From contig JAAYAD010000096.1 of assembly GCA_012719545.1 (NCBI GenBank), positions 1-64,000 on the forward strand: a DNA stretch of 64,000 nt, written 5' to 3'. Under the pieces are notes generated by a model. That model searched no databases. It was not told the origin of the DNA and was given only the letters and a program-made list of their open reading frames with translations. Position 1 is the first letter of the stretch. Each line of letters starts with the position of its first letter. The translations under genes and the position numbers were made by a program. Below are positions 16,082-23,967 of the stretch, piece after piece. This DNA is from Clostridiaceae bacterium. GTDB lineage: Bacteria > Bacillota > Clostridia > DSM-8532.

Positions 16082-18514
16082 ATGAGTAGTAAGACAACCA
16101 GGAAGAAGACAGCGAAAGACAATATAATAAAGAACATGCCTATGCTCCCTTTGAGAGGTTTAGTGGTTTATCCATTCATGATACTCCATTTTGACGTGGG
16201 CCGCCTGAAGTCAATTAAGGCTATTGAAGAGGCCATGCTTAAGGATCAGAAAATCTTTCTCACCGCTCAGAAGGATCCTAATATAGAAAACCCTGAATAT
16301 GACGAAATCAACACCGTTGGAACCATAGCCAACATAAAGCAGCTTATCAGGCTTCCCGGAGATACAATCAGAGTTCTTGTTGAAGGTATCGAAAGGGCTG
16401 AAATTGTTAACTTTATTCAGGACGAGCCTTATTACATAGCTGATGTGAAGATCCTTAAATCAAGCGTGCTTCAGAGCAGGAACTCTGAAGTTCAGGCCCT
16501 TGCCCGCCAGGCAATGGAGCACTTTGAGAGATATGCAAAACTCTCTGGCAAGATTACTCCTGACGCGTCATTGTCAATTGCCAATATCAACGACTTGACA
16601 AGGCTTCCGGACCTTATTGCGTCAAACCTTGACATTTCCAATGAAATGAAGCAGGAGATTCTTGAGGAGCTTTCACCAAAGAAGCGTCTTAAGAAGCTTC
16701 TTGACATCATGGCAAAGGAAAATGAGATTCTTGAAATAGAGAAAAATATCAGCAACAAGGTACGCCAGCAGATTGACAAGAACCAGAGGGAATACTACCT
16801 GCGTGAGCAGATAAAGGCAATCCAGAAGGAGCTGGGAGACTCTGACCTTGAATCCGAGGTTGAGGAATACAGATCAAGGATTAATGAGTCAAACATGCCT
16901 GAGGAAGCAAAGAAAAAGGCATTGAAGGAAGTTGACAGACTGTCCCGTATGCATTCCACTTCAGCGGAAAGCGGAGTTATCCGTACCTGGCTGGATCTTG
17001 TTCTGGAGCTTCCATGGGATAAGAAGACCGAAGAAAGACTGGATGTTCAGCATGCCGCTGAAATCCTTGACAGGGATCACTATGGCCTTGAAAAGGTCAA
17101 GGAGAGAATCCTTGAGTATCTGGCAGTGCGTAAAATGACAAAGAGCCTTCATGGTCCAATTATATGCCTTGCCGGACCTCCGGGCGTAGGTAAGACATCA
17201 ATTGCAAGGTCAATTGCAGAAGCCCTTAACAGAAATTATGTAAGGATGTCCCTGGGTGGCGTCCGTGATGAAGCAGAAATCAGAGGACACAGAAGAACCT
17301 ATGTAGGTTCCATGCCAGGCAGAATTATAAATGCCATCAGACAGGCGGGCTCATCCAATCCTCTCATATTGCTTGATGAGATTGATAAAATGTCCAGTGA
17401 TTACAGGGGAGATCCGGCGTCAGCAATGCTTGAAGTGCTGGATGGAGAGCAGAATAAGGAATTCAGGGATCATTACCTTGAGCTTCCATATGATTTGTCG
17501 GATGTGTTGTTCCTTACAACCGCCAACTATAAGGGAAATATCCCCAAGCCTCTGCTTGACCGTATGGAAGTTATAGATATAACCGGCTATACAGAAGATG
17601 AAAAGACCAATATCGCACTTAAGTATCTGGTTCCCAAGCAGCTTGCCCTTCATGGTGTTGAGCCTTCAAAGGTGCGCATTGATGAATCGGCAGTCCGCGA
17701 GGTAATTGTTCACTATACCTCCGAAGCGGGAGTCAGAAACCTTGAAAGAAAAATTGCCTCAATAATACGAAAGGCAACAAAGCAGATAGTTACAAATGAA
17801 AAGAAGACTGTCCGCATTACAGCCAATAACGTAAAGGCTTATCTTGGCCCAAGAATATACCTCTACGACAAGGCCAACGAAGTTGATGAGGTGGGCGTTG
17901 TAAGAGGACTTGCATGGACTCCCAATGGCGGAGATACCATGCCCGTTGAGGTAAATATTATGCCGGGAAGCGGAAGCCTTGAACTTACAGGGCAGCTGGG
18001 CGATGTTATGAAGGAATCCGCCCACATTGCCAAGAGCTATATCCGCTCAGCGGCTTTAAGGTACGGAATTGATGCTGAATTCCACAAGAAGTATGACATT
18101 CACATCCACGTACCTGAGGGAGCGGTTCCCAAGGACGGACCTTCAGCGGGAATCACCATTACAACAGCAATGGTGTCGGCTCTTACCAATAATCCTGCAA
18201 GAAAGAATGTGGCTATGACAGGTGAGGTTACCTTAAGAGGTAAGGTTCTTCCCATAGGCGGACTTAAGGAAAAGGTGCTTGCAGCCCACAGAGCAGGAAT
18301 CAGCACAGTTCTTATTCCTGTTGACAATAAAAAGGATATAGACGAGATTCCTGAAAACATAAGAAAGGTCGTGCGCCTGATACCTGTATCCCACATGGAT
18401 GAAGTATTAAAGCATGCCCTTGTTAAAAAGCCCATTCCTAAGAAGGAACAGCCCGGCGAAATTATGGTATTAAGCCAGGCAGCGGAAGAAGCGGCCGTGA
18501 CGCTGGAAAATTAA
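16082..18514 (+). CDS. lon: ATP-dependent endopeptidase Lon (LonA)
   Basis: This 810-residue AAA+ protease degrades damaged and regulatory proteins in the cytosol. In order: an N-terminal substrate-binding LON domain ([20 protein letters not shown] onward), coiled region, Walker [10 protein letters not shown] near residue 365, Walker [12 protein letters not shown], and the serine-lysine protease domain with DGPSAGITI (Ser about 687) and [14 protein letters not shown] (Lys about 729). Length is normal. ATG 16082 has only a weak AAGGGATG ribosome site. It has its own promoter and terminator. Confidence 0.98.
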
Positions 18515-20294: not shown

Positions 20295-20989
20295 TGCTAA
20301 CTCTTGCTGTTGAAACCTCAGGTCTTACCGCATCGGCTTCGGTTGTTGAAAACGGAAAAGTTATTGCGGAGCTGAACCTTCAGTACGGCAAGACCCATTC
20401 CCAAAAGATTATTCCCATGCTGAAAACCATGCTTGGCATGATAAATAAGGATTTCAAGGATATAGATTTGTTTGCCGCATCAACAGGACCGGGTTCCTTT
20501 ACAGGACTAAGAATAGGTGTGGTTACAATAAAGGGCCTTGCATATTCACTGAACAAACCTGTTTGCGGAATACCAACCCTTGATTCCCTTGCCTTTCTGG
20601 TGCCCGATTTTAAGGGAGTAATTTCGCCCATGCTGGATGCAAGGAACAATCAGGTATACACGGCTCTTTACCGCAAAGAAAACGGTAACCTTGAAAAGAT
20701 AATTTATGAAGAAGGAATTTTAATTGATGACTGGATTAAAAAACTTGAAGAATATGATGAAGTCATGATTTTGGGTGACGGAGCCCCATTGCATTACGAG
20801 AGAATGAATGAAGCCTTAAAAGGCAGGGTTACAATTGCCCCTCCGGCCTTTTTCTTTCCAAGGGCTGCCGCAACCGCAATTCTTGCGGAAAAAGCTTATT
20901 ATGAGAATAAAGCAATGAGCCCCTTTGACTTAAACCCGCTTTATGTTCGAAAATCCCAGGCCGAGAGAATGAAGGAGCTTAAATCATGA
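20294..20989 (+). CDS. tsaB: tRNA threonylcarbamoyladenosine biosynthesis protein TsaB
   Basis: This 231-residue ASKHA-fold protein is the non-catalytic partner that binds TsaD and TsaE for t6A formation. It begins MLTLAVETSGLTASASVV and has the conserved AASTGPGSFTGLRIGV motif and DARNNQVYTALYR. It ends in an ATGA overlap with rimI. TsaD itself is not in this window. Confidence 0.97.
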   Translation: MLTLAVETSGLTASASVVENGKVIAELNLQYGKTHSQKIIPMLKTMLGMINKDFKDIDLFAASTGPGSFTGLRIGVVTIKGLAYSLNKPVCGIPTLDSLAFLVPDFKGVISPMLDARNNQVYTALYRKENGNLEKIIYEEGILIDDWIKKLEEYDEVMILGDGAPLHYERMNEALKGRVTIAPPAFFFPRAAATAILAEKAYYENKAMSPFDLNPLYVRKSQAERMKELKS

Positions 20990-21459
20990 CCATGATGGAA
21001 CATGATAATACAAGCCAGCCTGTCGTAAGGATAATGGAATACAAGGACATTGACAGCATCCTGGATCTGGAGCATAAATGCTTTTCATTGCCATGGTCCA
21101 AAGGCATGTTTGAAGATGAACTTGTAAATCCCAATGCCATCTATCTTGTCCTTGAAATTTCAGGCCGGATTTGTGGCTATGCAGGCATGTGGAAAATCAT
21201 CAACGAAGGGCATATAACAAATGTTGCGGTTCATCCGGACTATAGAAGAAAAGGCTACGGGACACTTCTGATAAAAAGCCTTATTCAATATGCCATGGAT
21301 AACGGAATAGAGGCACTTACCCTTGAGGTAAGGGTAAGCAACACAGCCGCCATCTCCCTGTATGAAAGCCTTGGTTTTCGTGTGGAGGGAAGAAGAAAAC
21401 GCTATTATTCAGACAACAACGAAGATGCTTACATAATGTGGCTTTTTTTAAACCAATGA
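20986..21459 (+). CDS. rimI: Ribosomal protein S18 alanine N-acetyltransferase RimI
   Basis: This 157-residue GNAT enzyme acetylates the N-terminal alanine of S18 in known cases. The acetyl-CoA-binding motif A is HPDYRRKGYGTLLI, followed by VSNTAAISLYESLGF, the usual RimI signature. ATG 20986 overlaps the tsaB stop by four bases; ATG 20992 is an alternative. The tsaE-tsaB-rimI order is widespread in Firmicutes. Confidence 0.95.
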   Translation: MTMMEHDNTSQPVVRIMEYKDIDSILDLEHKCFSLPWSKGMFEDELVNPNAIYLVLEISGRICGYAGMWKIINEGHITNVAVHPDYRRKGYGTLLIKSLIQYAMDNGIEALTLEVRVSNTAAISLYESLGFRVEGRRKRYYSDNNEDAYIMWLFLNQ

Positions 21460-21488
21460 GTTTTAATTGATACAGTTAATTAAATGCC

Positions 21489-21554
21489 GCCCCCGTTCAT
21501 ATTTTTGCACTTCCGTTTATAAAATGTAAAATGGTACGGAAAATGAACGGGGGC
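21489..21554 (+). promoter_or_regulatory. Large hairpin over the ribosome-binding site of the LonB-like gene
   Basis: GCCCCCGTTCAT (21489-21500) pairs perfectly with ATGAACGGGGGC (21543-21554), and an inner TTCCGT/ACGGAA pair (21511-21516, 21536-21541) extends the stem. The 3' arm includes the GGGGG that acts as ribosome-binding site for ATG 21562. A promoter candidate, TTGCAC (21505-21510) and TAAAAT (21527-21532) at 16 bases, lies inside the loop. No T run follows, so a terminator is unlikely. Confidence 0.65.
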
Positions 21555-21561
21555 ACTTCAT

Positions 21562-23967
21562 ATGGCGGTTGCACCGTTAAGCGCCGACTCTTTGAGAAGG
21601 GTGTGCGACCCTTCCATTTTTAAATTCCAGGACACATCTTACTTAACTCCTTCTAAAGATCTCATTGGACAGGAAAGAGCAGTAAGGGCATCAAGGTTTG
21701 CCCTTTCAATTCCACAGGACGGATACAATCTCTATATGGCAGGAAAATCCGGAACAGGAAAAACAAGGTATGCACTGCAGCTTGCCCAGAAGCACGCAAG
21801 GCAGATGCCCGTACCCGATGACTGGTGCTATGTCTATAATTTTGAGGATCCCAGCCGGCCAAAGGCCATAAATCTTCCCGCGGGAAAGGGAAGAGAGTTT
21901 AAAAAGGACATGGAGGAATTCTCCAAAAAAATTGAACAAGAGATTGTAAAAGCCTTTGAAGGTGAAGACTACGAGACTGAGAGGGAAAGGATTCTAAAAG
22001 AATTCCGGACCAAAAAAGCTGAATATGTCATGGCGCTTAATCAAAAGGCCCAGGAGCGGGGATTCAAAGTAAGGCTTTCAAGCTCGGGTCTGTATTTCAT
22101 GCCCGTTGTTGATGGAGAGCCCATGGACGAAGATGATTACAAGCTTCTGGACGAGGATGTAAAGTTAGAGCTTGCCAGGGCATCGGAAGCTCTTCAGGCT
22201 GAAACTGCCGATATTATCCGTAAAATCAGGGAAATTGAGCTTGAGGCCGAAGATGCAGTAAGGGAATGGGAAGGCCAGATTGCGCTATATGCTGTGGGAA
22301 TACATATTGACGACCTGAAAGCTAAGTACGGAAAATTCCCTCTTGTTATAAATTATCTGGATAACGTAAAAGAAGATATTCTTTCGAATCTTGAGCAGCT
22401 TATTGGCACAAACCTTGCCGATGACCAGCAGAATATCTTATATCAGATTATGCTGAAAAGAACAGGCGAAGATAACCCTTACGACAGATACAAGGTCAAT
22501 CTCATAGTGGATAACAGCCGGCTACAGGGAGCACCCGTCATTCTGGACTACAACCCTACCTATTATAACTTAATTGGCAGATGCGAATATGAAAATGAAT
22601 TCGGAACCATGACAACCGACTATACCCTCATAAGGCCGGGCCTTTTCCATCAGGCCAACGGAGGCTTTTTAATCTTACAGGCAAGTGATGTTCTTTACAA
22701 TCCCCAGGCCTTTGAGGCAATAAAGAGGACTCTAAAAACAAGGCAGATTATTATTGAAAATATCAAGGAGCAGATGGGACTTTCTGCAGTATCGGCAATA
22801 AAACCGGAACCCATACCGATTAATGTCAAGATTATTCTGGTGGGAAGCGAAGAGATTTATTATCTGCTCTACAATTACGACAAGGACTTTAAGAAGTACT
22901 TTAAAATAAAGGCTGATTTTGAAGAAGCCATGGACTGGAATGAGGAAAACGTCCTTCGCATAGCCCAGTTTATAGGAGCCTATTGCAGAAAGGAAGGACT
23001 GAGACATTTTGACAGGACGGGTGTTGCCGCCGTTATAAATTACGCTTCGTGGCTTGTCCAGGACCAGAATAAGCTGACCACCCGTTTTTCAAATATAATA
23101 AATATCCTTGTGGAGGCCGACGCCTGGGCTAAAATTGACGGCTCATCCCTGGTGACCGGAAAGCATGTGGAAAGAGCCATAAGAGAGAAGAAGAGGCGCT
23201 CAAATAAGCTTGATGAGCAGCTTCTTTCCATGATAAAAGACGGTACCATACTCATTGACACAGATGGATACGCAGTGGGTCAGATTAACGGCCTTGCGGT
23301 GATTGACATGGGTGATTACGCCTTTGGAAAGCCCAGCCGTATTACAGCCACCACATACATGGGAAAAACCGGTATTATAGATATAGAACGTGAGGTTGAA
23401 ACAGGAGGAGTGACCCATTCAAAGGGTGTGCTTATTTTAAGCGGATATATAGGCAAGAAATATGCCCAGGACATACCTTTATCCCTTGCAGCAAGCATAT
23501 GTTTTGAACAGCTCTATGGCGGCATTGAAGGGGATAGTGCTTCGTCCACTGAGCTGTTTGCAATACTTTCAAGCCTTTCGGACCTGCCTGTTTATCAGGG
23601 GATAGCCGTAACAGGCTCTGTTAACCAGCATGGCTTTATCCAGCCCATTGGAGGAGCAACCTTTAAAATTGAGGGCTTTTTTGAAATATGCAGGATGAAC
23701 GGGCTGAATGGAAAGCAGGGGGTTATTATTCCCTATCAGAATGTGAGAAATCTTGTACTTTCAGATGAAGTTGTTGAGGCGGTAAGAAAAGGGCAGTTCC
23801 ACATTTATCCCATAAAGACCGTTGACGAGGGCATAGAGATTTTAACGGGAGTGCCAGCTGGAGAAAGGCTTCCCGACGGATCATACCCTCCCGGTACGGT
23901 TAACGGCCGGATATACAATAAGCTTCGCTATTTTGCCGAGACTACGGCCAAATACAGAACCAACTGA
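21562..23967 (+). CDS. Lon-family ATP-dependent protease (LonB/LonC-like, AAA_32 type)
   Basis: This 801-residue protein is distinct from the LonA at 16082. It lacks the LON substrate domain and starts with an ATPase module: AGKSGTGKTRYALQL near residues 59-73. A long helical insert follows, then VNLIVDNSRLQGAP, a lid domain, and a C-terminal S16 peptidase domain with EGDSASSTELFAILSSLSD (catalytic Ser near 660) and GGATFKIEGFFEIC (Lys near 700). This architecture matches the PF13654 group of bacterial Lon homologues. Its substrates are unknown. The ATG lies behind a stem that hides its ribosome-binding site. Confidence 0.93.
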   Translation: MAVAPLSADSLRRVCDPSIFKFQDTSYLTPSKDLIGQERAVRASRFALSIPQDGYNLYMAGKSGTGKTRYALQLAQKHARQMPVPDDWCYVYNFEDPSRPKAINLPAGKGREFKKDMEEFSKKIEQEIVKAFEGEDYETERERILKEFRTKKAEYVMALNQKAQERGFKVRLSSSGLYFMPVVDGEPMDEDDYKLLDEDVKLELARASEALQAETADIIRKIREIELEAEDAVREWEGQIALYAVGIHIDDLKAKYGKFPLVINYLDNVKEDILSNLEQLIGTNLADDQQNILYQIMLKRTGEDNPYDRYKVNLIVDNSRLQGAPVILDYNPTYYNLIGRCEYENEFGTMTTDYTLIRPGLFHQANGGFLILQASDVLYNPQAFEAIKRTLKTRQIIIENIKEQMGLSAVSAIKPEPIPINVKIILVGSEEIYYLLYNYDKDFKKYFKIKADFEEAMDWNEENVLRIAQFIGAYCRKEGLRHFDRTGVAAVINYASWLVQDQNKLTTRFSNIINILVEADAWAKIDGSSLVTGKHVERAIREKKRRSNKLDEQLLSMIKDGTILIDTDGYAVGQINGLAVIDMGDYAFGKPSRITATTYMGKTGIIDIEREVETGGVTHSKGVLILSGYIGKKYAQDIPLSLAASICFEQLYGGIEGDSASSTELFAILSSLSDLPVYQGIAVTGSVNQHGFIQPIGGATFKIEGFFEICRMNGLNGKQGVIIPYQNVRNLVLSDEVVEAVRKGQFHIYPIKTVDEGIEILTGVPAGERLPDGSYPPGTVNGRIYNKLRYFAETTAKYRTN

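Follow-up and report, generated by a model that had tools for sequence, protein, structure and literature searches.

Why should the SD sequence of a Lon-family protease gene be buried in a long hairpin, between the arms of which lies part of a promoter-like site? The locus that raises this question was found in a stretch of 64 000 nucleotides from a Clostridiaceae bacterium, an uncultured relative of Thermoclostridium (contig JAAYAD010000096.1), referred to below as the window. The hairpin is, in our judgement, probably a translational lock against read-through. Message entering from rimI, the gene upstream, would carry both arms and would fold, hiding the SD sequence of the protease gene; message from the gene's own promoter, the −10 element of which would lie between the arms, would be without the 5′ arm, and its SD sequence would be freer. 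Only transcripts from the gene's own promoter would thus give rise to the protease.

Locus and encoded protein

In the window, lon, an amidohydrolase gene, tsaE, a TsaD-family (tsaB-like) gene, rimI and then the gene for a Lon-family protease of 801 residues form a co-directional run. The genes at the junction are as follows.

20986–21459, + strand: rimI (ribosomal protein S18 alanine N-acetyltransferase); TIGR01575, 1.8e-43, 147.8 bits, over the cut-off
21457–21459, + strand: rimI stop codon, from the sequence
21562–23967, + strand: Lon-family protease of LonC type, 801 residues; Pfam AAA_32, LonB_AAA-LID, LonC_helical and Lon_C

The rimI stop (21459) and ATG 21562 are separated by 102 nt. 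rimI would be the upstream source of read-through transcripts; no terminator-like site was found between it and ATG 21562 in a scan that admits loops of 3–8 nt only and cannot decide on a long-loop stem. A separate full-length Lon is encoded upstream (16082–18514). The 801-residue protein matches the LonC helical domain (PF20437) at 2.9e-21, which assigns it to the LonC subfamily, and carries the CX3GLX(G/E) insertion as CRMNGLNG at residue 710 (listed as CX3GLXG). This insertion, specific to LonC according to PMC3391209, is the feature that the window protein has in common with the MtaLonC described there. MtaLonC is characterized in the same paper as being without canonical AAA+ motifs, whereas the Walker A motif of the window protein (GKSGTGKT at residue 61) is canonical. 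On these sequence features the gene at 21562–23967 is called lonC-type (lonC below). Within its first codons, at 21596–21614, lies a terminator-like GAAGGGT/ACCCTTC followed by CATTTTT; similar letters occur in the relative L042, and this terminator-like hairpin is not generally kept among the relatives.

Structure of the hairpin

The hairpin occupies the DNA between rimI and lonC.

21489–21503, + strand: 5′ arm of the hairpin, GCCCCCGTTCATATT; sequence, fold and repeat search, with 12 perfect pairs at 21489–21500
21502–21542, + strand: inner stem and loop; fold
21540–21554, + strand: 3′ arm of the hairpin, containing the SD sequence GGGGG (21549–21553); sequence, fold and repeat search

The outer stem consists of 12 perfect pairs (21489–21500 with 21543–21554; sequence and fold) and the inner stem of six (21502–21507 with 21537–21542; fold). 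The SD sequence, 8 nt ahead of ATG 21562, is covered by the stem, and in the predicted fold of the long transcript of the window it is paired with the upstream arm. A repeat search returned the arms as 15 nt with a 93% match. The minimum free energy of 21470–21600 is −41.4 kcal/mol (z = −3.33), and none of 200 shuffles was as stable; when the DNA upstream of −22 was shuffled, an equally good SD-covering stem arose with p = 0.002. Among the 57 SD-bearing genes of the window lonC has the top stem score (32; runner-up 21), and in a survey of 324 further genes, taken from 20 other stretches of the genome, a single SD stem scores higher (38), the next scoring 28. A 12-bp stem with a 6-bp inner stem over the GGGGG before ATG 21562 had been reported in a preliminary description of this DNA, and the sequence, the fold and the chance tests bear it out.

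A dispersed repeat or mobile element was considered and rejected, the single match in the genome being the hairpin locus itself. No exact copy of the 11-nt core of the arm exists outside the hairpin, and matches with one mismatch number 24 against 29 for the reversed control. Searches of the hairpin against plasmids gave no match and against phages one weak match only (E = 0.8, one third of the query). No Rfam 15 family reached its gathering score in 21300–21800, the best being CopA with 23.4 bits against a gathering score of 60.

Conservation of the arms in relatives

The protease gene is present in 13 of the 14 genomes of the genus, and 12 of these loci have readable upstream DNA (L045, truncated there, was left out). 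In the protein tree the genus adjoins group g7, of which L041 is a member, and a supported clade unites the window with L034 and L042. An SD-pairing arm starting 65–96 nt before the ATG is found in 11 of the 12 readable orthologues, L038 being the one without, and the chosen arm is the second-best stem in L030 and the third-best in L037. The letters of the arm differ between species: GCCCCC in the window, AACACCCCC in L031, GCATTTCC in L029, AACAGACCC in L042 and a long AACAGCCGCACTTTTTAC in L034.

Stem scores with p ≤ 0.05 were obtained for 8/12 loci in the genus, L038 being counted among them by another stem, over its −35 element, against 2/16 orthologues outside the genus. When arms were swapped among the 12 species, the duplex energies of the own arms summed to −219.3 against a swap mean of −174.3 (p = 0.0008; 0.0006 with ten species and 0.0018 with eight). 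In only three species (L028, L032 and L034) does the own arm outrank the other 11 for its SD sequence, so that much of the swap signal is carried by L028 and L034. In a swap restricted to the window, L034 and L042, the true pairing came first of the six arrangements, the best possible result. Covariation was counted over nine pairs in 11 species in registers set by eye: 88.9% of the cells are paired, eight cells show double changes and 13 additional pair types occur, whereas controls with slid registers gave 55.7–66.2% paired cells and 1–5 double-change cells. Whole-arm swaps reached the observed pairing in two of 5000 trials and the observed double changes in 13 of 5000. The p values of the pairing tests are optimistic in that related species are counted as independent.

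Judged from these alignments, the pairing has been kept by compensatory change at 11 of 12 loci in one genus, with kinship uncorrected. The preliminary description had pointed to conservation of the stem in relatives as a check; this is upheld by the pairing and its compensatory changes, but the stem score is not significant one by one in four of the 12 loci (L029, L030, L033 and L037). Three species (L031, L035 and L036) have the arm without rimI upstream, the gene upstream in L031 and L036 being an FGGY kinase (Pfam), which indicates that the arm belongs to the protease gene. Where rimI is present, the arm begins about 10–15 nt after its stop in L030, L034 and L037, so that a terminating ribosome could touch it there; the gap in the window is 29 nt.

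Thermoclostridium-group orthologues have the sequence TCATATT in four of five cases and a significant SD lock in none of the five. In the folds of L039 and L041, both of this group, the SD sequence is free and is preceded by a terminator-like hairpin; on this model the L039 hairpin, positioned after the TCATATT promoter-like site, could act as an attenuator.

Promoter-like motif between the arms

Two promoter-like sites overlap in the loop region.

21497–21503, + strand: −35-like TCATATT, overlapping the 5′ arm; 14-nt spacing, 8/12 loci including the window, from alignments
21518–21525, + strand: −10-like TATAAAAT, between the arms; TCATATT-N14-TATAAAAT common to relatives
21505–21532, + strand: TTGCAC-16-TAAAAT (boxes 21505–21510 and 21527–21532), the candidate of the preliminary description; present in the sequence, not a conserved site

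The preliminary description had placed TTGCAC-16-TAAAAT inside the loop. Its letters are there, but the site that the relatives have in common is TCATATT-N14-TATAAAAT, and of this only the −10 element lies between the arms, its conserved −35 element overlapping the 5′ arm. The same holds across the loci, where the −10 element is between the arms and the −35 element adjoins or overlaps the 5′ arm. Transcription is predicted to start at about 21532–21533; the conserved promoter-like motif is thus located so that its predicted transcript would be without the 5′ arm. A promoter scan of the window gave overlapping TTCATA-18-TAAAAT and TTTGCA-17-TAAAAT, with 9 of 12 positions each.

A motif common to the relatives between the arms, TTTCATA-N12-GGTAGATARAATG (12-nt gap), was sought in the 14 genomes with up to three mismatches, a search that misses the sites of the window, L034, L037 and L042 because they are too different. 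It gave 20 matches: eight at lonC (six with no mismatch, two with two) and, away from lonC, one place with two mismatches and eleven with three. The backward control gave ten matches in all, about equal to the eleven three-mismatch places; at 0–2 mismatches the loop motif thus occurs at lonC and at one other place. The form TCATAWN-N14-NATANNNT matches 8/12 lonC loci, including the window (21497–21525). In seven of these eight the −10 element is [GT]ATARAAT, and in L033 it is GATAGAGT; as exceptions, L037 has a gap of 12 nt and L032, L034 and L042 have no match. TCATAW-N15-NATANNNT, a pattern picked after lonC had been seen, gave ten matches in 793,192 bases, a total that takes in both strands.

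Upstream of spoIIIAA in the genus, a strict search found TCATAWN- or GCATATC-N14-CATANNNT in 8/14 loci, and the ATA element and spacing of lonC match these promoters, as in the sigma-E type. ATA is also the −35 element of sigma-E promoters in Clostridium difficile, where similar −10 boxes are described for sigma-E and sigma-K, CATATTAT and CATATAAT being named (PMC3789822). Compared with the sigma-E −10 sequence CATAnnAT, the first base differs in the eight lonC loci, so that it is the −35 element and the spacing that look like sigma-E. By these two features, and with an imperfect −10 element, a sigma-E-type promoter appears likelier than a sigma-A one; a sigma-A promoter (TTCATA-18-TAAAAT, 9 of 12) may be the alternative. 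Ownership by sigma-F or sigma-G was considered and rejected, the regions upstream of spoIIR and gpr in the genus being different by eye (GAAT-type elements).

Long and short transcripts

Modelled transcripts of the window differ in the cost of opening the SD sequence by 17.6 kcal/mol (long minus short), against a mean of 4.2 and a maximum of 11.0 kcal/mol in 100 shuffles; with longer transcript ends the difference is 16.4 kcal/mol. Such differences have p ≤ 0.02 at 8/12 loci of the genus, L030, L033, L037 and L038 being not significant, and at none of 15 comparators, one of which (L053) reaches 0.03. At 37°C the model of the short transcript leaves the SD core of the window no more than 0.32 unpaired, and that of the long transcript of L030 gives 0.80 for the SD core there.

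The preliminary description had transcripts from rimI silenced and those starting in the loop translated. Pairing, motif and modelled costs favour this picture, but the cost is not significant at four of the 12 loci and the promoter had been misplaced. A message that would be locked when read through from upstream and open when started from its own promoter is the best supported reading on these models.

Alternative explanations

The stem could instead end transcription of the upstream operon as an intrinsic terminator, overlapping the promoter and the SD sequence of the next gene, with insulation at the level of RNA synthesis and not of translation. We regard this as unlikely for the locus as a whole. 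In 5/11 armed loci (L031, L034, L035, L036 and L037) at least five of the 8 nt following the stem are T, with T runs of 6–7 in L031, L034, L035 and L036, and the fold of L034 is a long hairpin followed by TTTTTT. The other six armed loci are without a T tract, however, the loops are long except in L034, and the window has three T in the 8 nt, the longest run being two, so that its stem is not followed by a T tract. Judging by these sequences, termination could operate in some relatives, alone or together with the lock, and is possibly the selected function there.

Still less probable is an operator in the DNA, an inverted repeat bound by a repressor in which RNA pairing is incidental. The idea draws on the genome itself: the two repeats with scores of 38 and 28 in the survey above resemble repressor-operator repeats by eye, at a TIGR03916 gene and a BlaI-like gene, so that the presence of an SD-covering repeat is by itself little evidence for a lock. 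At lonC, the arms are not themselves palindromic and their letters vary between species while the pairing is kept, which speaks against an operator. The first repeat, of 18 pairs around a promoter-like TATAAT, covers the SD sequence of the radical SAM DNA-repair gene at L196:3952–5194 (− strand) and by eye looks like two boxes that we take to be LexA-like; the second, an operator-like inverted repeat, covers that of a gene at L206, about 10263, presumably BlaI-like from its first residues. An RNA thermometer, in which heat would melt the hairpin and free the SD sequence of a stress protease, had been offered in the preliminary description as another reading. An SD sequence occluded in the leader (fold) and a Lon-family product would suit it, but in the modelled long transcript the SD core of the window is 0.00 unpaired at 37, 50, 60 and 70°C, and 6/12 loci, the window included, are at most 0.10 unpaired at 70°C. 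The 12-pair GC-rich stem is also much stronger than known RNA thermometers. The thermometer is not supported by the model, and we consider it very improbable.

Relation to known systems

The mechanism of the preferred reading, a translational lock against read-through, is already known from T4 gene e, I-TevI and Bacillus subtilis sigG; the LonC-type protease gene is a new user. No report of a hairpin at this protease gene was found in the literature, among open-licence papers and with several queries aimed at precedents. As described in PMC3014915 and PMC2988022, the SD sequences of T4 gene e and I-TevI are hidden in long early transcripts, and adjoining late promoters give transcripts without the 5′ part of the structure, which are translated; the stated effect for gene e is 100-fold. 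A similar arrangement is stated there for mobE of phage Aeh1, and T4 soc is listed in the same group. These are phage genes, in T4 under phage late promoters, whereas the gene here is cellular.

For B. subtilis sigG, a large hairpin over the SD sequence is proposed to block read-through messages (PMC5942855). Like lonC here, that gene lies downstream of a co-directional operon and the hairpin is impossible in transcripts from its own promoter; it encodes a sigma factor, and the gene here a LonC-type protease. A lock was also computed for the sigG genes of the genus, at the 11 loci that pass the family cut-off (the genome's own copy, L110, and L100–L109). SD-covering arms such as AACACACC and GGTGTGTT pair in ten of the 11 minimum-energy folds, L101 being the one in which they do not, and the genome's own copy has a stem score of 28. 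The arrangement differs in that the 5′ arm of lonC is upstream of and overlaps the −35 element, whereas in sigG the arm comes after a GAATA element, read by eye as the −35. If the reading holds, a cellular protease joins the phage late genes and the one sporulation sigma gene for which this translational lock is best known, and the natural compensatory variation in the arms makes the lock directly testable. With two such locks in one genus, a search for SD-covering arms flanking promoters could bring to light genes that need to be kept silent in read-through messages.

Possible link to sporulation

Sporulation timing of lonC is put forward as a hypothesis. The genus matches the families sigG, gpr, spoIIR, spoIVA and spoIIIAA. 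In a broader scheme, which we hold tentatively and with more doubt than confidence, a sigG-type lock would be used at least twice in the genus, for sigG in the forespore and for the LonC protease, with a mother-cell sigma-E promoter between and over the arms. It would keep sporulation-timed genes silent in growth, and at lonC would have evolved after the split from Thermoclostridium, at a promoter common to both. A strict link between lonC and sporulation was tried and rejected: in 61 genomes, with lonC taken at E ≤ 1e-30 and the partial match G017 counted, spoIVA is present in 27/31 genomes with lonC and 23/30 without, no clear association. If true, the hypothesis would tie a Lon-family protease to the sporulation programme of Thermoclostridium relatives in a way that can be tested. 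In C. difficile a sporulation sigma factor, sigma-K, controls the Lon-type protease CD0564 (PMC3789822), whereas the −35 element of the candidate promoter here is sigma-E-like and not sigma-K-like.
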